IMG/VR virus record: IMGVR_UViG_3300042892_003184
Location: 1 to 50,552 of that record
Source of the DNA: a virus
Strand: one strand, 5' to 3'
Length of the DNA stretch: 50,552 bases
The notes under the pieces were generated by a model. It was not told the origin of the DNA and searched no databases. It saw only the letters and a program-made list of their open reading frames with translations. Positions 17,361 through 50,350 of the stretch are shown here, piece after piece. Both the position numbers and the translations under genes were made by a program. Numbering within the stretch: the stretch's first letter is position 1; every line of letters starts with the position of its first letter.

Positions 17361-17530
17361 TATCGGTAATCCTCATAGTCATATTCCTCATAGGGAGCAA
17401 GTTCGTCATCGGGGGGAATAATTTCATCAAGTCGATTCTTTGCCGTCTTTCGTGGTTCCTTCACGGGATCTTCATCGCGCTTGTTACGCTTACGATCCCA
17501 CTTATTCTGGTCTTTATAGGTTTTTCCCAT
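17360..17530 (-). CDS. Small highly charged protein
   Basis: 56 aa, starting at the ATG (17530) that overlaps the stop of the AAA+ ATPase gene as TAATG. The N-terminal half is strongly basic (KNKRDEDPVKEPRKTAKNR), the C-terminal half acidic and Tyr-rich (PYEEYDYEDYR). It is probably disordered. Tight coupling to the ATPase suggests an accessory partner; no family recognised. Confidence 0.5.
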   Translation of the reverse strand: MGKTYKDQNKWDRKRNKRDEDPVKEPRKTAKNRLDEIIPPDDELAPYEEYDYEDYR

Positions 17531-18732
17531 TAGATCGCATTCCACATGCCAGACGCTGGCACCTGCGTCGAAGCGTGAAGGTTATCCCACACGTTACCAG
17601 TGTTCAGAATGCTTGGAATATACTTCTGAACCAACTGCTTCATGTAGGTGCGTTCCGAATCTGCACCACCGGCGTCCGAGAAGAACGGATAGATGCACAC
17701 CTCGGCCGCCTCTGCCAAACTGAATCCATCATAAATCAATCCGGCCATTTCTACCGTGAGACGACTAGAGATTGAAGTGGTAACCTTCGGATCATCAGAA
17801 CGAACCTGCGTTCGGGTATTTCCAGCAATTTCAGCAATTGCCCGAGCCGATACTTCTGGAAGATTCGGGTAGGTCATGTTAATCAGCTTCAGTTCATTCT
17901 CAACCGACAGTGGTTCCATTTCAACGATTGCCGTAAACCGATCCATCATCGCTCGGTCAAGTACACGGGTGGCGGTATACTCACTACCGATATTTGCCGT
18001 GGCGATAAATGTCACGCCCTTCGCAACCTTGATGGTCGGCGTATCAGGCTTCTCGTCAATTCGGAGATATCGCTGGTTTTCGTCAAGTACCGTGATGAGA
18101 ATGTTCCATGCGTCAGAAGTTCCGCGCGTCAACTCGTCAATCATGATGATGGCATTTTCTTTCTGAATGGCCTGGCAGAACCATGCCTCTGCCACGAAAG
18201 TTCCCTTTTCCTTACTATAATGGGTATTACCAATCAGAGACGAGCGAGGATCGGTGGTGGCGCCAAGATTGAAGTAAAAGAATGGACGGCCATTCAACGC
18301 TTTCGCAACACTCTGGACTGCCAGCGTCTTGCCGCAACCAGACGGGCCGGTCATCATAATGTTCTTGCCACGAACCACCGAACGCATCAGATACTTCCAC
18401 TTCAAATCGGAAATGATGAGATTGGACGGGCGAAGGTCAATACTCTCCGCCAGATACTTTTCAATATCTTCATGCACTTCATCCGAACGATTGTCGGTTA
18501 CGTCCAGCGGAATTGCATTCTTTGAGAGTGCATCGAATACGCTCATTTCTGCATGACGCAACTGCGTACCGCCCGTCTTTGTGGTAATCATACGATAACA
18601 CCCACCATTTTTACGCAGGTGACGAATCTTGTGTGCTGCCAGATCAACCGTATCACCAAACTGATTCACTGGAATCTCTGCATCATTCAATGCCACCACG
18701 ATTTCTACCTGCGTATGCTTGACCTTAGTCAC
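17530..18732 (-). CDS. MoxR-type AAA+ ATPase (CobS-like)
   Basis: 400 aa from a GTG at 18732. GPSGCGKT (129-136) is Walker A, IIMIDE (195-200) Walker B, FIATAN sensor 1, and an arginine-rich stretch (ATRVLDRAMMDRF) supplies the finger region. The layout matches CobS/NirQ/CbbQ-type ATPases that remodel targets together with a VWA partner. The partner lies immediately upstream at 18800-21028. Class II RNR in this window needs adenosylcobalamin, so a cobaltochelatase-like role is tempting but unproven. An in-frame ATG upstream lies inside promoter P2, upstream of its -10 box. The true start must be the GTG, which has GGAG 9 nt before it. Confidence 0.85.
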   Translation of the reverse strand: MTKVKHTQVEIVVALNDAEIPVNQFGDTVDLAAHKIRHLRKNGGCYRMITTKTGGTQLRHAEMSVFDALSKNAIPLDVTDNRSDEVHEDIEKYLAESIDLRPSNLIISDLKWKYLMRSVVRGKNIMMTGPSGCGKTLAVQSVAKALNGRPFFYFNLGATTDPRSSLIGNTHYSKEKGTFVAEAWFCQAIQKENAIIMIDELTRGTSDAWNILITVLDENQRYLRIDEKPDTPTIKVAKGVTFIATANIGSEYTATRVLDRAMMDRFTAIVEMEPLSVENELKLINMTYPNLPEVSARAIAEIAGNTRTQVRSDDPKVTTSISSRLTVEMAGLIYDGFSLAEAAEVCIYPFFSDAGGADSERTYMKQLVQKYIPSILNTGNVWDNLHASTQVPASGMWNAI

Positions 18733-18774
18733 TGTTTTACTCTCCGAAAAATGATTGATTATTGAACCTTCTGT

Positions 18775-18803
18775 AATATAACACATTCCCACCTATTTGT
18801 CAA
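18775..18803 (-). promoter_or_regulatory. Early sigma-70-type promoter P2
   Basis: Minus strand: TTGACA (18798-18803), 17-nt spacer, TATATT (18775-18780). It drives the CobS-like ATPase gene, with a predicted transcription start near 18768. Its -35 box overlaps the last codons of the VWA gene, so the ATPase and VWA genes have separate promoters. Confidence 0.8.
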
Positions 18804-24617: not shown

Positions 24618-24646
24618 AATATAACTAAAAGAAAGCAGTTTGTCAA
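24618..24646 (-). promoter_or_regulatory. Early sigma-70-type promoter P4
   Basis: Minus strand: TTGACA (24641-24646), 17-nt spacer, TATATT (24618-24623). It serves the SPOUT methylase gene. The stop codon of the upstream GIY-YIG endonuclease gene (TGA) lies inside the -35 box. The endonuclease insert therefore ends exactly at the promoter. Confidence 0.8.
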
Positions 24647-25350
24647 GGTGTTGGTTTTAATCTACAATTATCAAAATGATATCGTTTCATACCACTGGGC
24701 TTTCCCTCTTTATTACAGTGTGGACACACAATATTCAGTTTATTTTTCATACTATCAGATTGTTTTTTTCGTTGTTCATCGGATAATACAACATTTTTTC
24801 TTGGAGAGGGTCTGCCTTTATTGAGTTCAGAAATATATTTTTTAAGTTCCGCTGAGTGTTGTTTACCATAAAAATGATTATCTTTACCTAACTTTTTTTC
24901 TCTATTGATTGCCATTTTTTGCTTAGATTCTTCCGAGTGAGTTTTTCCATACATCGGATGTTTTTCTCCAACATAAGGTTTTCTTTTTTCCGATATCTTT
25001 TTACGTGTCCGTTCACTGTGCGTTTTTCCAACAATCCACGAAGGAATGCCCGTCGTACAAAAATTCTTACCGCCATTATGACGATTTAACCATTCATCTT
25101 TAGACGCTGCATCAATTCGTGTTAAGAATTTTGTTTCCCATGATAGCGCATCTTCTGAGGTTTCAAATAATTTACGAACTTCATACTCAAATGAATCATC
25201 ACCATGTTGTTCTCGTAATGATTTTACGATTTTTGAAGTTGAAAAATAAGTTTTCCACAATTCATCCGGATGACAATCTTTTGCCGTTCTTACGCCATAG
25301 TAATGTTTGCCCGTTGGTTTGTGATACAAATAATAGGTATATGGTTGCAT
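24643..25350 (-). CDS. GIY-YIG homing endonuclease with NUMOD3 repeats
   Basis: 235 aa. The N-terminus YYLYHKPTGKHYYGVRTA (5-22) is a divergent GIY-YIG start (Y..YYG), with a catalytic-region Glu in WETKFL near 76. It is followed by at least three NUMOD3 repeats (GKTHSERTRKKISE, GKTHSEESKQKMA and GKQHSAELKKYISEL), DNA-binding modules of homing endonucleases. A CPHC...H...C zinc knuckle closes the protein. Such enzymes cut intron- or gene-free alleles and promote their own spread. Start follows GGAG at 6 nt, downstream of the hairpin element at 25371-25482. Confidence 0.88.
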   Translation of the reverse strand: MQPYTYYLYHKPTGKHYYGVRTAKDCHPDELWKTYFSTSKIVKSLREQHGDDSFEYEVRKLFETSEDALSWETKFLTRIDAASKDEWLNRHNGGKNFCTTGIPSWIVGKTHSERTRKKISEKRKPYVGEKHPMYGKTHSEESKQKMAINREKKLGKDNHFYGKQHSAELKKYISELNKGRPSPRKNVVLSDEQRKKQSDSMKNKLNIVCPHCNKEGKPSGMKRYHFDNCRLKPTP

Positions 25351-25370
25351 ATCTTACTCCAAAACACAAA

Positions 25371-25482
25371 ACCCCTACTTTCAGTCACCAAAGTGTTAAC
25401 GGCACCTTGGGCTTACTTATAGGGGTAATTTTGTTATATGTGCGAAGAAGGCCGTTAACAATCCTCACATATATAAATATCA
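25371..25482 (-). ncRNA. Kissing-loop RNA element, copy A, upstream of GIY-YIG gene
   Basis: As transcribed with the minus-strand gene: a hairpin with stem TATGTGAGGA/TCTTCGCACATA shows loop TTAACGG (452-458). An outer stem ACCCCTA/TAGGGGT (420-426 with 371-377) encloses a second hairpin, CCAAGGTG/CACTTTGG, with loop CCGTTAA (396-402). The two loops are exact reverse complements over 7 nt. Flanking conserved strings are ATGATATTTATA at the 5' end and GAAAGTAGGGG at the 3' end. All last-three-digit positions are within 25xxx. Copy B at 50236-50350 keeps the fold with different loop bases. Class unknown. Confidence 0.7.
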
Positions 25483-25500
25483 TTTGTGTTTTAGAAACAT

Positions 25501-31904: not shown

Positions 31905-32819
31905 TTAACTTGTTAAAATGGTATGTAGTACTGTTATAAAATTAATTTCTTTGTCAATCACTTGACTGTCCCACCTACACCCGTCTCCAATTGCAATAAT
32001 TGCTTGTGAAATTTTATTGGGGGCATATTGTTCAACATAATCAAATAATACTCTGTATAATTCGGTGAAGTCTTGAATCTGTGCGTCAGCTACAATCTTT
32101 CGAATTTCACCAACCTTATCCTTCAAGGTCAAATTACTGGTTAATGCATCTACGACCTTTAGTTTAACATCCTGTCCAATCAGTTCATCAATACTTACTT
32201 GTAGTTTTCCATCACGGGTCTGAAGTTGTGCAGTATTGATACATTTACGAATGTCTGGGTAATATGCATTCACAATCTGTGCGATTGTCTTTGTATCATA
32301 TTCCACATTTTCATTTTTTAGGATATCCGCCAACTTCTTTGCGGCATCCTTCTTACTCGGTGGCGTGAGCTTATACACCTGCGTTCTACTTACTAGTGGG
32401 TCAATGATTCTTTCTAGATAATTTGCCGTCAAGATAAATCGAGTTGATGCGGAATATGCTTCCATCATGTTACGAAGCGCGGGTTGGGCTTCTCGTCCCA
32501 AGAAATCTGCCTCATCCAATACAACAATCTTCAATGGAGCAAATCCAACCGTTGACGCAAATCCCTTAATCTTATCACGAACCGTATCAATACCCCGTTC
32601 GTCGGATGCATTAATAAACATATAATCACAGTCAATGTTCTTAACAAGAATCTTTGCGGCAGTCGTCTTACCAGTTCCCGCAGTTCCGTAAAACAATAGG
32701 TGTGGAATATCCTGTGTTTGGATATACTGTTCCAACTTTGCCCGAATCACATCATTTCCGATATAGTTTTCAAGATTATCAGGGCGATAGCGCTCCGTCC
32801 AAATCGTATTTTCGTTCAC
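31905..32819 (-). CDS. 44: Clamp-loader large subunit, gp44-like AAA+ ATPase
   Basis: 304 aa from a GTG (32819) that overlaps the methylase stop as GTGA, with GGAGG just before; T4 gp44 is 319. WTERYRPDNLENYIG (7-21) is the RFC/gp44 N-terminal box. GTAGTGKT (45-52) is Walker A, VVLDEADF Walker B, and LVSRTQVY carries the SRC motif. FILTAN is sensor 1. With the gp62-like subunit it loads the gp45-like clamp using ATP. A longer GTG start at 32837 lies inside the upstream gene and lacks a better ribosome-binding site. Confidence 0.93.
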   Translation of the reverse strand: MNENTIWTERYRPDNLENYIGNDVIRAKLEQYIQTQDIPHLLFYGTAGTGKTTAAKILVKNIDCDYMFINASDERGIDTVRDKIKGFASTVGFAPLKIVVLDEADFLGREAQPALRNMMEAYSASTRFILTANYLERIIDPLVSRTQVYKLTPPSKKDAAKKLADILKNENVEYDTKTIAQIVNAYYPDIRKCINTAQLQTRDGKLQVSIDELIGQDVKLKVVDALTSNLTLKDKVGEIRKIVADAQIQDFTELYRVLFDYVEQYAPNKISQAIIAIGDGCRWDSQVIDKEINFITVLHTILTS

Positions 32820-34045
32820 ACCTTCCTCCACAGCCACAGCGGCTCGGCAAAAATTTTATTAACAGAGTTATCTACTCTGTCCATTGTATCGTCTGTCCAC
32901 TCGTTCGGTGCACTTCCTTGTGACACCGTTCCTGCTCCCGCACTATTCGGTCGTTTGGACATTTCCATTCCGATTGATCCCATATATTCCAATCCCAATG
33001 ACTGTAAATGATTATTCATGGGAGTTGTAATTTCTAACCACCGTTTACCACCCTTCCCAGATGTAGAAAATACATCAGCAATGTTTATTGCCATAATACC
33101 ACCGACTCGTAATGCTGGATAAATATTCGTTAGTACTTGATGTAAGAACTTTTCATTCCATTCTTCAATAGATTTATATCGTTTGAAACTCTGGGTGTCA
33201 TCCGTACTATAATGTTCTACATTAAAATATGGTGGCGAAGTGAATACTATATCAAAGTACTCATTATACTCTGAAAAGTCAACCCCTTCGGCGGGTAATT
33301 CATAAAATGTTGTTTTTTTATCGTTCTCAAAAAAACTACTATGTTTTACATAAAATTCTTTTTGTTTTTCATATAATGGATGATTATCTTTATTGGGGTC
33401 CATGCCAACATAATGTTCTGTTGTGTTTCCCGCATAGAATCCCGCCAACCTATCACCCCAACCCATTGAAAAGTCCAATACATTTTTAGATTGGAACATA
33501 TCATATAATGATTTTGCTACATTTGGTCTGAATTGCGAACACGTATATTTACGTAAATGTAAACATCCTCGCAATGTAGACTTATCAATGCGAGGAACTT
33601 TTAAGGTAAACAATGATCCCATCAGACTTACCATCGTACTCTTAGTACGCCATGTCTTCTCGGGACCAGGTGACCGATTTGAATTTGCTTTCCAACGATT
33701 CTCTTGTTGAAAGTAATTTGAAGCCATGTTACCCGTATTGCTCTTTGAAAATATCGTCGGCGTTCCTTCAAACAATAAACTATAGTCTGTACTTTTTGTA
33801 CGGGAAAACCATTCTTGTTGTTTAGTACTCTCATTCCATTTAACACTTTTCAATTGCATATAACTATTATACGCATCGTCTTCACTAATATCATTGTAAG
33901 GAATAGGGTACATCATACAAATTGTCGCCATACTTTCTTTGATATCATCTACCGAGAATGTTTGTTTAATATACTGCCACTCGTCCGCACTTATTGCCAA
34001 GTACGGAGTCATGGCTAAAAACTTGTCAAAGTAATTTTGATACAT
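32816..34045 (-). CDS. DNA N4/N6 methyltransferase-like protein
   Basis: 409 aa. LDFSMGWGDRLAGFY near residue 197 is the SAM-binding FxGxG-type motif and VFTSPPYFN near 271 is catalytic motif IV (SPPY, the N4-cytosine/N6-adenine type). VGGIMAINIADVFS follows as motif V/VI. The 190-residue N-terminal extension has no recognised domain. The next gene upstream encodes a TET-associated-type glycosyltransferase, so the two may act in DNA hypermodification. The replication genes surrounding it fit a role in marking progeny DNA. The target base cannot be read from the sequence. Confidence 0.75.
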   Translation of the reverse strand: MYQNYFDKFLAMTPYLAISADEWQYIKQTFSVDDIKESMATICMMYPIPYNDISEDDAYNSYMQLKSVKWNESTKQQEWFSRTKSTDYSLLFEGTPTIFSKSNTGNMASNYFQQENRWKANSNRSPGPEKTWRTKSTMVSLMGSLFTLKVPRIDKSTLRGCLHLRKYTCSQFRPNVAKSLYDMFQSKNVLDFSMGWGDRLAGFYAGNTTEHYVGMDPNKDNHPLYEKQKEFYVKHSSFFENDKKTTFYELPAEGVDFSEYNEYFDIVFTSPPYFNVEHYSTDDTQSFKRYKSIEEWNEKFLHQVLTNIYPALRVGGIMAINIADVFSTSGKGGKRWLEITTPMNNHLQSLGLEYMGSIGMEMSKRPNSAGAGTVSQGSAPNEWTDDTMDRVDNSVNKIFAEPLWLWRKV

Positions 34046-35296
34046 TTATTCTGTTTCGGTTTCAATATCCACTGGATTAGTACGTTTTACTAGTTTCATA
34101 TTATATTCATTGACCTTTGGTTCTCTAGAAATTCCCTCTTTCAATACCAAGTCTTGCTTAAATAACTTAGTGTATGCAATGTGATGATGCGGTCTGCCAT
34201 CTTTATGCATTTCATGCGTCAATGTAACAATTTTACCCCAATGCTTCTTTAACTCATCAAACTTTTTTTGATATCCAGAAGTATTACCACCTTCATAAAT
34301 GGTATCCGTATTCCCGCCACGCATGGTACCGGTGGTTTGTTTTCCACTCAGTAGTGTATTAAAGTTGACCGTGCACAAATCGCCAGTGGACAGCACTCGC
34401 AAAGACAAGTCGGTATCTTCGTTGTACGTTCCGCGCCAACGTTCTTCCAACCGAGTATCTAGTAATTCAGAATTGATTAAAATACAGCTATACACTCTTG
34501 TATTTTTTATAAACTGACTACGGCCTGGTTCTGTTGCAGGAACAAATGACATATATTGGCATCCGACCAACCCCAAGTTTTCATATCGGTCACTGAAATC
34601 TTCCATGATTCTGAAAAACACACCGTCTTTAACTTTCTTCTTTAAATTATTGTTCCACCGATAAAATCCAAGAATATTATCATCGACTACCCAATGTTTT
34701 TTGTGACCACTCTTAACCGCATGATCCCATACGAAATTTCTAACAGGAATACTACCCCTCTTTAATGCACTAAAGTTTTCGGGGAGTTTTATAATTTTTT
34801 TTACATCTACTTTTGCAGCATACGAATCGTATTCCGCGGGTTCTACACATATATAAAAATCAATTCCCATCTCTTCAAGTGTATCAATCGTAAATGTCTT
34901 TTCCCACCGACCTTTAGTAATTACATATATCGGATACTTGGGATAAATTTTATGTGTGTATGCATATTCATAATCCCGCAATGGATTTTCATTAAGATCA
35001 TAATGTACATAACGACTTGCATTATTTTCTTTCAACCCAAATGTCTTATACACTATATTCCGTTCCATTTGATTTTTAACAAATACATTTACTATGCACC
35101 GTTCCATCAAATATGGCGACCACGCAAATTCTGGTAGATTGAAATAATGTTCACATTCCAAATCATACATGTTATGATTTTTATAATCAAATTCATATGA
35201 AAGTGTATAATCCCAGAAGTCACCTTCAATAAGTGTGTTATTTAAAATATCTGCAACTTTTTCTTTATGACTTGTGTGGATTTTAATAATTTCCAT
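34046..35296 (-). CDS. TET-associated-type glycosyltransferase (TAGT-like)
   Basis: 416 aa. YPIYVITKGRWEKTFTIDTL near 141, IPVRNFVWDHAVKSG near 182 and KHWVVDDNILGFYR near 200 form a GT-A-like core with a DDN metal/donor motif. They match the TET-associated glycosyltransferase group known from phages that glycosylate hydroxymethylated or otherwise modified bases. The ERWRGTYNEDTDLSLR region suggests the C-terminal acceptor base. No TET/JBP dioxygenase is visible in the window. Adjacent methylase gene abuts the stop. Family call is from memory of the motif pattern. Confidence 0.6.
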   Translation of the reverse strand: MEIIKIHTSHKEKVADILNNTLIEGDFWDYTLSYEFDYKNHNMYDLECEHYFNLPEFAWSPYLMERCIVNVFVKNQMERNIVYKTFGLKENNASRYVHYDLNENPLRDYEYAYTHKIYPKYPIYVITKGRWEKTFTIDTLEEMGIDFYICVEPAEYDSYAAKVDVKKIIKLPENFSALKRGSIPVRNFVWDHAVKSGHKKHWVVDDNILGFYRWNNNLKKKVKDGVFFRIMEDFSDRYENLGLVGCQYMSFVPATEPGRSQFIKNTRVYSCILINSELLDTRLEERWRGTYNEDTDLSLRVLSTGDLCTVNFNTLLSGKQTTGTMRGGNTDTIYEGGNTSGYQKKFDELKKHWGKIVTLTHEMHKDGRPHHHIAYTKLFKQDLVLKEGISREPKVNEYNMKLVKRTNPVDIETETE

Positions 35297-48126: not shown

Positions 48127-49512
48127 TCACTCCTCCGAAAAATCATCGTGGAGTTCAGATAATTTCTTTGCAAGAGTCTTTTTTAACATTCCTTCTCCCG
48201 CCTGCATTTGCTTCTTCAACAGAATGCCCTTGGAAGAATTTTCATCATAAATTTCAATCTTTCCAAGACCAGTATTCATATACACAGGCAGTGTTACACC
48301 ATCGACGCCAAACCGATTTTTCATAATATGTGCTCGACCAGTATGATTTGCTTTATCTTCCAGTTTACGCGACAATGAAATTACCAAGTCAGCCGTCATA
48401 ATTTTCTGATAGGATTCGGCAATCTTGTCTGCTTGAATTACATCGTCTTGAATACTACTGCGTTGCGTTTGTGAAGCAGTCCAACAGGGAATACCCATCT
48501 CACCGGACATACCACGTATTTCTTCGTAAATTGCTCCAAGTTCTTGATGTCGTGCTTCTATACGATCTACTGATCGCATGAGATCTGCGTAATCAATCAA
48601 AATTAGATCGGGCTTTAATTTATTACTTACAAGATGGTCAAGATGTGCCCGAATTGTATGCACGGTAATGGAACGTGCGGGATAATATTTAATGATAATA
48701 TCACCGGTTACTCCCGCAACTGCTTCTTTTACAACTTCTGGGTGATTGGGTACATTTCCAGGTTCAATGCCCGTGAAAATAGTGTCGTATCGAAGTCCAA
48801 CATAATTCTCATTTAATTCCAATGTATAATACACCACTCGTTTTCCGGCCTTTGCTGCATTTGCTCCAATCGTGGCAAGCGCCCAACTCTTGCCAATACC
48901 AGAAGGAGCAGCGATAACGCCCAGTTCACCTGCCCCCAATCCTCCGCCAATCAACTGATCTACAGAATCCCATCCCGTAGGAACAACGATACGAGAAATA
49001 CCCGATAATCGAATACCAATATCGTCTCTCCAATTATGTCCAATATTACGAGGCTGTCCTGCCTTCATCGCCCCATCAATCAAATTCTTAATTTCGCCAT
49101 ATTGCCCAATCTGCAGCAAATCGACGGATCGAATAATTGCCGATTTAATTGCTTGATTCTTTGCGAAATCTAGAAAACTGTCACGGATATATTCCAAATC
49201 GTCGTCGTTCTTTCGTTGGAATGCGGATCGCAATTGATCCTTGATCGCAATCTTCAACACCTCATCATTCACCGAATCCAACTTAACCTTGAAAACTTCT
49301 AATGTCGGCAATGACTTGTAATCGGCAAAATAATCAATCGTCGTATCAACAATCCATTGCCCCGCATTCGATTCAAAGAATTTAGGATTTAATACATCTA
49401 ATGATTGCTGTAGGAATTCTGTAGATGACAATAAATTTGCTAATACTTTTGCTTGAAATACGCTTCCAAATTTTGTTAACGTGTCTACCGTCGTATCATG
49501 CTGTGTTGTCAT
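48127..49512 (-). CDS. 41: Replicative DNA helicase, DnaB/gp41-like
   Basis: 461 aa (T4 gp41: 475). APSGIGKSWALATIG near residue 204 is Walker A, LILIDYADLMRS Walker B, and ASQTQRS carries the switch Gln. The N-terminal 150 residues are helical as in DnaB-type N domains. Forms the hexamer that unwinds ahead of the polymerase. Continuous: no intein, although the gene is a frequent split-intein site in T4-like phages. Own promoter P9 upstream; GAGG ribosome-binding site. Confidence 0.92.
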   Translation of the reverse strand: MTTQHDTTVDTLTKFGSVFQAKVLANLLSSTEFLQQSLDVLNPKFFESNAGQWIVDTTIDYFADYKSLPTLEVFKVKLDSVNDEVLKIAIKDQLRSAFQRKNDDDLEYIRDSFLDFAKNQAIKSAIIRSVDLLQIGQYGEIKNLIDGAMKAGQPRNIGHNWRDDIGIRLSGISRIVVPTGWDSVDQLIGGGLGAGELGVIAAPSGIGKSWALATIGANAAKAGKRVVYYTLELNENYVGLRYDTIFTGIEPGNVPNHPEVVKEAVAGVTGDIIIKYYPARSITVHTIRAHLDHLVSNKLKPDLILIDYADLMRSVDRIEARHQELGAIYEEIRGMSGEMGIPCWTASQTQRSSIQDDVIQADKIAESYQKIMTADLVISLSRKLEDKANHTGRAHIMKNRFGVDGVTLPVYMNTGLGKIEIYDENSSKGILLKKQMQAGEGMLKKTLAKKLSELHDDFSEE

Positions 49513-50216
49513 TCTGCCTCACTGGCGTTGTCTGTATCAGTATACACCCGCGGGTGTTTTTTGTCAAGGTGTTGTTTTCTTTTAGTATCCGATATTTTCT
49601 TCCTGGTTGACGCGGGACGAACAATGCCGGTTAGTTTATTGGATATTTTCTTCTTGGTTTCCGTGGAATGTGAGGTTCCGGTCAGTCTCGCCGATACTTC
49701 CAATTTACGTTGCTCCGTCCAACCGGCGACTGCGGCCATGCACATCTCAGTTCTATGAGTTGTCCATCGCGATGCTAAACGGGATTTCATTCCAACTCGT
49801 TGTTCTTTTGAAATAAGCCTTCCTTTATTTGCGGTTGATATGTTATGTTTATGCTCGTCTGAAAACTTTTTTCCTTTATGACTATCCGACATTTTCTTTT
49901 TTGTTTCTATCGAATGGGGGCGTCTAACTAACGAGACAAACCCAATACCACCATCGACTAGGTTTACTAGTTCACCAGTTCCGGTATTTTTTCTACCGTA
50001 ATGTTTTATTAGTTCCTCTTCTTTACGCAACGCGTCTTCGTGCGATAGCCCCTCATATAATAGGACAACATCATATCCATACTTAGCGACGACGGTGTGC
50101 CATAAATAATTTCTAGATGCTGTGCTATATGCACGGTGTTTTTTTCCCTTGCCTATATAAAATGGATCAGAACTACCGGGAATATAATGTGCGTACACGT
50201 AATATATAGATTCCAT
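49509..50216 (-). CDS. GIY-YIG homing endonuclease with NUMOD3 repeats
   Basis: 235 aa from the ATG with GGAG 6 nt upstream. YYVYAHYIPGSSDPFYIGKG is the GIY-YIG signature, and EEELIKHYG supplies the catalytic Glu region. Repeats RPHSIETKKKMSD, SDEHKHNIST, SHSTETKKKISNK and STRKKISDTKR are NUMOD3 DNA-binding modules. The frame runs through promoter P9 and overlaps the helicase ATG, so its last 20 codons double as promoter DNA. The upstream flank carries kissing-loop element B. Confidence 0.9.
   Translation of the reverse strand: MESIYYVYAHYIPGSSDPFYIGKGKKHRAYSTASRNYLWHTVVAKYGYDVVLLYEGLSHEDALRKEEELIKHYGRKNTGTGELVNLVDGGIGFVSLVRRPHSIETKKKMSDSHKGKKFSDEHKHNISTANKGRLISKEQRVGMKSRLASRWTTHRTEMCMAAVAGWTEQRKLEVSARLTGTSHSTETKKKISNKLTGIVRPASTRKKISDTKRKQHLDKKHPRVYTDTDNASEAE
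49539..49567 (-). promoter_or_regulatory. Early sigma-70-type promoter P9 with spacer palindrome
   Basis: Minus strand: TTGACA (49562-49567), 17-nt spacer, TATACT (49539-49544). The spacer contains the perfect 12-bp palindrome CACCCGCGGGTG (49545-49556), an operator-like site. It serves the helicase gene and lies within the 3' end of the GIY-YIG gene. Confidence 0.8.
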
Positions 50217-50235
50217 GCGATTCTCCAAAAAAGAA

Positions 50236-50350
50236 ATCCCCTACTTTCTGACGATAGGTGTTCGTGGCACCTAATGCATACTCATAGGGGATAGACTTAC
50301 TATGTGTCGGAAAATGCCACGAACATCTTTCCGACTCCTATAAATATCAT
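50236..50350 (-). ncRNA. Kissing-loop RNA element, copy B, upstream of GIY-YIG gene
   Basis: Same fold as copy A. Hairpin GTCGGAAA/TTTTCCGAC carries loop TTCGTGG (317-323). Outer stem ATCCCCTA/TAGGGGAT (285-292 with 236-243) encloses hairpin TAGGTG/CACCTA with loop CCACGAA (261-267). Loops are exact complements, with bases different from copy A at three paired positions. Conserved strings ATGATATTTATA and GAAAGTAGGGG are at the same places. The upstream ORF's stop (50350-50352) abuts the conserved 5' border. Last-three digits refer to 50xxx. Confidence 0.7.

Follow-up and report, generated by a model that had tools for sequence, protein, structure and literature searches.

A structured RNA family with predicted loop-loop pairing, probably the 5' leader of phage homing endonuclease messages

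The RNA element found twice in the genome of an uncultured phage is best explained as the structured 5' leader of a free-standing homing endonuclease mRNA, inherited within a mobile unit that comprises a TATTTATA box, the leader RNA and the endonuclease gene. We assign this reading a probability of about 0.58. The two copies (A and B) are located on a stretch of 50,552 nucleotides (IMG/VR record IMGVR_UViG_3300042892_003184), in the following denoted as the window. Together with six further variants (C to H) there are eight distinct variants in the window and in related phage contigs. The element is a real structured RNA family whose general kind, the leader RNA of phage homing endonucleases, is known; new here are the fold and a ribosome-binding site that is kept outside of it. 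The structure is established by covariation, and a conserved context and absence at empty sites are observed as well; the element is best read as neither an intron nor an established ribozyme. The carriers are a group of uncultured phages with selfish DNA-cutting genes, and the leader probably controls the timing or the amount of the enzyme.

Fold, variants and covariation

Both copies are encoded on the minus strand (A, 25468-25351; B, 50335-50217) and consist of two hairpins, P1 followed by the longer P2/P3. As described in the original prediction, both have the outer stem CCCCTA/TAGGGG (P2) as well as loops with exact 7-nt complements, TTAACGG/CCGTTAA in copy A and TTCGTGG/CCACGAA in copy B, and three central loop pairs are altered on both sides between the copies. 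The complementary segments are L1, a segment of the P1 loop, and L3, the apical loop of P3. Their complementarity is exact, but the 9 nt initially noted were too short: the full complement comprises 10 nt in A (25460-25451) and 11 nt in B (50325-50315). Folding z-scores are -3.47 for copy A and -3.09 for copy B.

Leader A comprises 118 nt (25351..25468, minus strand), with an inferred +1 at 25468 that is derived from the box and the start of P1. Its structured part covers 25468-25372, and the leader itself continues to 25351. The element was at first thought to span 25351-25500; this holds up to 25468, whereas 25500-25480 lies upstream of it and precedes a promoter-like box (25479-25472). The P1 hairpin (25442..25468) pairs 25468-25462 with 25448-25442 around a 13-nt loop that contains L1 (TTAACGG, 25452..25458). 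The P2/P3 hairpin (25372..25425) consists of P2 (25425-25420 with 25377-25372), P3 (25410-25403 with 25395-25388) and L3 (CCGTTAA, 25396..25402). Between P2 and P3 there is an internal loop with AGTA on the 5' side (25417-25414) opposite GAA on the 3' side (25382-25380). A Shine-Dalgarno motif GGAG was read from the sequence at 25357..25360. Leader B comprises 119 nt (50217..50335, minus strand; inferred +1 at 50335), with the P1 hairpin at 50306..50335 (50335-50328 with 50313-50306) and L1 (TTCGTGG) at 50317..50323. Its P2/P3 hairpin (50238..50290) consists of P2 (50290-50285 with 50243-50238), AGTA (50282-50279) opposite GAA (50248-50246), P3 (50273-50268 with 50260-50255) and L3 (CCACGAA, 50261..50267). 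The internal loop, AGUA/GAA in the RNA, carries what we take to be the loop E or S-turn consensus, a match that concerns the bases only and not the geometry. Loop E or S-turn motifs are found in the sarcin-ricin loop, in 5S rRNA and in T-box specifier loops. The same bases face each other within a helix here and there, as a common building block only; the Rfam search gave neither a T-box nor an rRNA match.

The element was originally described as occurring in two copies. Instead, seven variants with loop pairing (A to G; L1-L3 complementarity of 7-12 nt) and one with the second hairpin only (H) were found, and all eight share the P2/P3 hairpin with the AGUA/GAA internal loop. Variant C (TTAGCGG/CCGCTAA) results from a pattern scan of viral_contigs that also gave near-identical contigs of A and B. 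Two covariance models were built, R1 from A to C and R2 from A to E, with the loop-loop pairs excluded from the structure used. Applied to the surroundings of relatives of dnaB and of a SpoU-type methylase gene, both neighbouring genes (75 of 80 loci, five being left out as known copies), R1 gave variants D (TTCACGG/CCGTGAA, E = 8.1e-28) and E (TTAGAGG/CCTCTAA, E = 6.5e-24). R2 gave variants F (E = 8.5e-9, L1 GCCGGCAAGC, exact 10-nt L1-L3 complement) and G (E = 1.8e-5, L1 GCCTGGAAAGCA, exact 12-nt complement). In F and G, P2, AGUA/GAA and the L1-L3 complement are kept though most other sequence differs, and L1 is the 5' tail of the inferred message, not a hairpin loop. The original prediction of a loop-loop pairing thus has two limits, the 5' tail as partner in F and G and the lack of a detectable L1 in H.

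Variant H corresponds to a weak R2 row (G020, E = 0.23; CCCCCATTAGTA...GAACGTGGGGG), whose P2/P3 hairpin is separated by 20 nt from the start of an HNH gene and whose fold is only moderately stable (z = -1.73). Within 300 nt upstream there is neither TATTTATA nor TACTTATA, and there is no credible L1 (the best upstream helix is equalled by 310 of 2,000 shuffles). The second hairpin can thus occur on its own, and truncation or recombination may have given rise to H. When 50 related records were searched with a pattern of P2 and AGTA/GAA, exactly the eight variants were returned (reversed control 0), and a box-P2-AGTA pattern in 50 related records gave 5 matches, all known variants (reversed control 2).

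Covariation was counted in variants A to E only, as F, G and H are not reliably alignable. In this alignment, which was fitted to the covariance model and is hence biased toward the structure, the loop-loop helix is paired in 35 of 35 cells: its 7 pairs are present in 5/5 sequences, and 3 of them exhibit two-sided changes. For the whole structure (40 pairs), 94.9% of 197 cells are paired, compared to 84.4% in shuffled and 38-54% in slid alignments, and the two-sided changes at 15 of the 40 pairs are equalled by 0 of 500 shuffles; these shuffle statistics ignore the kinship of the five related sequences. When the five L1s are re-paired with the five L3s, only the true one of 120 arrangements gives 35/35. 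Shuffled arms equal the observed complement in 10 (A), 4 (B), 4 (C), 2 (E), 8 (F) and 0 (G) of 20,000 cases, and in 559 of 20,000 for variant D, whose complement has only 7 nt. A script requiring AGTA...GAA, a complement of 8 nt or more and the P2 stem picked out six of the variants A to G in 5.14 Mb (both strands counted) and missed D with its 7 nt. Three further listings (L015, L173, L231) were judged to be chance. These comparisons support a loop-loop pairing in the RNA that would be kept by compensatory change. As anticipated in the original prediction, the covariance-model search yielded more copies, all beside endonuclease genes and with covariation in the loop pairs. The element is a natural example of the drift of a loop-loop pairing, and, thanks to its clean loop covariation, a small reporter would suffice for direct tests of structure and function.

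Rfam 15 gave 0 matches at gathering scores in the 50,552 bases, and a permissive scan of A and B (E up to 10) returned 9 rows in total, all far below threshold, consistent with the earlier statement that the element matches no known ribozyme, riboswitch or intron class. A second viral_contigs pattern returned only contigs of the first scan. Other viral_contigs patterns matched 15 contigs, of which the 7 new ones were read as chance, and 41 contigs, of which none of the 33 new ones has the fold; one sequence present in three contigs (L197, L211, L214) has a matching centre without the fold. The 2 contigs matching a genome_contigs pattern were likewise read as chance. A blastn search against 50,697 phage records gave two short chance matches for A and none for B. 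Among 139 of 142 loci from two endonuclease searches (L019, L080 and L082 being left out as duplicates), R1 recovered A and B and no other copy; the remaining rows were controls, mirror-strand rows and 12 weak ones (E 0.78-9). R2 gave a single weak row (E = 0.09) in five named phages and, besides H, only one weak row (L316, E = 0.31) in six annotated phage endonuclease neighbourhoods and eleven loci without leader. The P2-AGTA/GAA pattern had 0 matches (control 0) in 50 other contigs with GIY-YIG relatives. Further weak rows (G036, G032, G033, G017, G035; E 0.03-1.03) were dropped as chance, like the 12 rows of R1, and are also unlisted by the two fold scripts that cover their loci. Rows on the mirror strand over A, C, D and E reach E = 1.6e-4 at best and reflect the same hairpins read in reverse. 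A literature search found no description of this motif, although one may nonetheless exist. Judged by DNA polymerase, the closest isolate is Microcystis phage Mel-JY01 (44% amino-acid identity), in which R2 finds no leader copy.

Promoter-like box and endonuclease genes

The box TATTTATA is found in exact form before six of the eight units (A, B, D to G), with TACTTATA in C and none in H, and directly adjoins the RNA element in the seven units A to G. In the window it is located on the minus strand at 25472..25479 (unit A) and at 50339..50346 (unit B, exact match). In the 145-kb relative G007, the same octamer is the most frequent one within 80 nt upstream of genes (14 of 139 regions), with a total of 20 sense copies. 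Ten of 15 G007 genes behind boxes were taken: four match virion families, one matches a UvsX-like recombinase and five are without match. The distance from box to start codon is 23-43 nt for the middle 90% of 28 cases, which were selected for a start codon 15-60 nt downstream. In gene direction, TATTTATA is the main promoter-like box of this T4-related group (G007, L168-L175; window). The late box of T4 is TATAAATA, and TATTTATA is its reverse complement.

In variants A to E the first base of P1 is the 4th one behind the box; in F and G the corresponding base immediately precedes L1 or falls at it. We place the inferred start of the transcript at this position, which results in leaders of 94-119 nt. 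The leader probably belongs to a separate and probably late endonuclease mRNA; against late timing stands that the box also precedes a recombination gene.

All eight variants stand directly before a homing endonuclease gene, GIY-YIG in seven cases and HNH in one. Gene A (24643..25350, minus strand) encodes a GIY-YIG homing endonuclease of 235 aa with NUMOD3 (E = 3e-19) and a match to PHROG 314 (E = 6.5e-31); its SegE_GIY-YIG match is under the cut-off. Gene B (49509..50216, minus strand) encodes a GIY-YIG homing endonuclease of 235 aa from ATG, with a PHROG 314 match (E = 6.6e-29) and NUMOD3. The two genes were said to be of identical length, which holds (235/235 aa) if B starts at this ATG, but not for its longest ORF (239 aa from TTG). 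PHROG 314 is matched by 7/7 GIY-YIG proteins (A to G); the GIY-YIG assignment is based on this match and the motif, with curated Pfam GIY-YIG cut-offs unreached where looked at and a weak match (E = 0.0025) of a B-G protein profile to GIY-YIG structures. The gene behind H encodes a 203-aa HNH homing endonuclease with NUMOD3 (PHROG 655, E = 2.8e-46; Pfam HNH under cut-off). The endonucleases B to G are clear relatives of each other, with A as a distant branch whose BLASTP scores do not exceed 29.6 bits, also between A and B. Leader A is 85% identical to leader C and 82% identical to leader D. The distant gene A behind a leader close to C and D, together with the HNH gene in H, therefore indicates that leader and gene are partly independent modules. 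By reading, the units have seven different downstream neighbours; with two distant GIY-YIG branches and an HNH gene behind it, the leader thus behaves like a module in its own right.

Other GIY-YIG genes of these phages do not have the leader, which speaks against the preferred reading. With the B-G profile, 12 endonuclease places were found in 48 related records, 7 with leader (6 variants, B twice) and 5 without; with Pfam GIY-YIG, 38 records gave 9 places, 3 with leader (A twice, F) and 6 without. Ten of the eleven leaderless loci were read, L340 being left out as the third copy of one sequence: seven have TATTTATA or TACTTATA 35-75 nt before the match, and three (one family) have neither. 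R2, which also covered L340, finds no leader at any of the eleven. The existence of leaderless GIY-YIG relatives implies that the long leader is an addition to a short one and not required by the gene family. At one leaderless GIY-YIG gene (L338/L339) the box is immediately followed by a small perfect hairpin, CTATAG-ATGGT-CTATAG. Protection of the 5' end as a general habit of these phages was not supported by a comparison of 28 leaders, whose first 6 nt are unpaired at 0.68 versus 0.65 in shuffled sequences and thus not paired above chance.

Possible role in translation of the endonuclease message, and related leaders

In the preferred reading, RNA polymerase would start about 4 nt behind the box, so that the message opens with P1 (A to E) or at or just before L1 (F and G). 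L1 would then pair with L3 at the tip of the long P2/P3 hairpin and close a compact, pseudoknot-like domain. By rough geometry, the linker of 14-16 nt between P1 (or L1) and P2 in A to G should be long enough for L1 and L3 of the same molecule to pair. In A to G, 14-23 nt separate the end of the structured part from the start codon, and the ribosome-binding site would lie in the short stretch just outside the domain. Most likely the leader would set the stability and the translation of the separate endonuclease message; its effect may be on translation, stability or protein binding. The chief alternatives are protein binding and sensing of transcript origin.

In T4-type phages, homing endonucleases are described as being controlled by leader RNA structures and late promoters, and such control of selfish endonucleases as worked out mainly on structures that bury the site: in the leaders of I-TevI, I-TevII, I-TevIII, segB and Aeh1 mobE, the ribosome-binding site is buried in upstream-initiated messages (PMC2988022). 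The units described here resemble these systems in having a leader RNA structure and a phage homing endonuclease; just upstream there is a middle or late promoter in those systems and a promoter-like box here. They differ in that a multi-helix loop-loop domain lies inside the inferred box-started message, and in that no consistent burial of the site is found in A to G. The Shine-Dalgarno sequence of variants A to G is unpaired at 0.69, 0.29, 0.55, 0.29, 0.96, 0.74 and 0.26 in folds of the leader only, which cannot contain L1-L3, and at 0.06, 0.14, 0.73, 0.87, 0.02, 0.58 and 0.19 in read-through folds, which ignore L1-L3. No shared rule of burying or freeing the Shine-Dalgarno sequence across A to G emerges from either set; low in some folds and high in others, these values do not indicate sequestering of the T4 type. 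A closer counterpart may be seg43(25) of Aeromonas phage 25, described as having a very stable hairpin directly before the ribosome-binding site of a segD-like endonuclease (PMC2988022). Compared by description alone, both structures end before the ribosome-binding site and not on it; the available description of seg43(25) is of a hairpin, without mention of loop-loop pairing, whereas the element considered here has L1-L3.

A protein-binding operator, in which the fold docks a phage protein (the endonuclease or SSB) that represses translation at the adjacent ribosome-binding site, is possible but rather unlikely. The T4 gene 32 operator is described as a 5'-terminal pseudoknot of about 28 nt that needs UUAAA/UAAA repeats (PMC535899), and the architecture here, a 5'-terminal pseudoknot followed by a less structured ribosome-binding stretch, is similar. 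The AGUA/GAA bases, kept in 8/8 variants, could be a recognition site, and H keeps that hairpin alone. However, the gene is a different one, and the repeats needed by T4 gp32 are absent between P2 and the start codon in A to G. Moreover, in G007 both R1 and R2 detect no leader other than the one at the endonuclease, and a single leader type that serves two distant GIY-YIG branches and an HNH gene argues against a private fit of endonuclease and leader.

Sensing of transcript origin is less probable still. Here, the box strand of read-through messages would pair with the 14-16-nt linker (P0), shorten it and hinder L1-L3; box-started messages, free of this strand, would fold correctly and alone be translated or stable, a logic as described for I-TevI, segB and mobE (PMC2988022). 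P0 helices of 8, 8, 9 and 9 bp are found in C, D, F and G, where shuffled linkers equal them in 169, 390, 121 and 99 of 5,000 cases, but P0 is at chance level in A (1923 of 5,000), B (3236) and E (4982), and the hindrance of L1-L3 is a geometric guess. In its full form, a switch in which box-started messages fold L1-L3 and are translated, P0 spoils read-through messages and each mobile unit has its own loop code, this idea is slightly more doubtful again. Within it, two units in one genome (A and B; E and G) have non-matching loops, so that their leaders could not cross-pair. If true, the element would be a new family of phage mRNA leaders, a switch read from transcript origin.

It is improbable that the element acts as an attenuator or terminator, with P2 and a U-run stopping RNA polymerase before the gene unless L1-L3 intervenes. 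The GC-rich P2 is indeed followed by U-rich tracts in A to E and, more weakly, in F. But G has only AUUUGAG behind P2, F has AUUUUUGUGAG and H has UUCUCUUCUGG; with the long U-run found in A to E but not in G or H, termination is unlikely as a shared function. A terminator scan lists neither A nor B (its 8-nt loop limit would exclude both anyway), and with the box upstream the unit would stop its own gene.

Insertion sites and mobility

The 145-kb relative G007 lacks unit B: a 5'-3' exonuclease gene (Pfam 5_3_exonuc_N), which we take to be T4 RNase H-like, runs straight into dnaB, which is 78% identical and starts at the corresponding ATG. In the window, unit B lies between genes. Behind it dnaB is whole, and the exonuclease gene before it, of which only the last codons are in the window, ends within a few residues of the G007 end. 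The insertion site of D and E, before a PD-(D/E)XK nuclease gene, is empty in the window (around 28444). Unit E (L266, 1777-2620) is located behind codon 5 of the PD-(D/E)XK nuclease gene. With a predicted endonuclease protein and an empty site in a relative, these are putative free-standing homing endonuclease units. Two functions had been proposed earlier, and control of endonuclease expression appears better supported than an RNA that is the mobile unit's own; for the latter, the leader travels with the gene, and nothing beyond that was found.

A compact and constrained fold on a mobile unit, in E just behind codon 5, would also be expected of a catalytic or splicing RNA, such as a small ribozyme or an intron-like element. 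We consider this highly improbable, given the position of B between genes, a downstream ORF in D and E that is open from a start inside the endonuclease gene, and no ribozyme or intron match of A and B in Rfam. A group I intron is disfavoured by the position of B between two genes; E is exceptional in its position. Equally implausible is a DNA-level inverted repeat (an operator or cleavage site) that merely resembles an RNA: L1 and L3 are inverted repeats in DNA as well, but the stems covary too, with G-U pairs (for example CCCCUG/UGGGGG in E) that are valid on the coding strand only, and AGUA/GAA is kept although it lies outside the stems.

Several units carry a sigma-70-like promoter that points at the downstream host genes. 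In A, B, C and H, such a promoter with 11/12 matches overlaps or lies within the terminal part of the endonuclease ORF: TTGACA-17-TATATT where gene A ends (24618..24646, minus strand), TTGACA-17-TATACT near the end of gene B before dnaB (49539..49567, minus strand), each the best of 12 sites, as well as sites in H (L303, 2191-2219) and at the gene end of C (L176). Units D to G have no such promoter above 8/12. The numbers of promoter-like sites are not above those of shuffled sequences (12 versus 15.1 for A; 12 versus 9.6, sd 3.1, for B), hence the weight of these promoters lies on their quality and position. A precedent is described for T4, whose seg and mob genes contain embedded promoters, and host-gene promoters within some endonuclease ORFs are a further likeness to the T4-type systems (PMC2988022).

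Two side features of the window are noted. In the regions 34046-35296 and 32816-34045, beta-glucosyl-HMC-alpha-glucosyltransferase (PHROG) and, weakly, a DNA methyltransferase are matched, which suggests that the phage DNA may be modified. The region 17530-18792 encodes a 420-aa protein that matches porphyrin-biosynthesis and AAA ATPase PHROGs.
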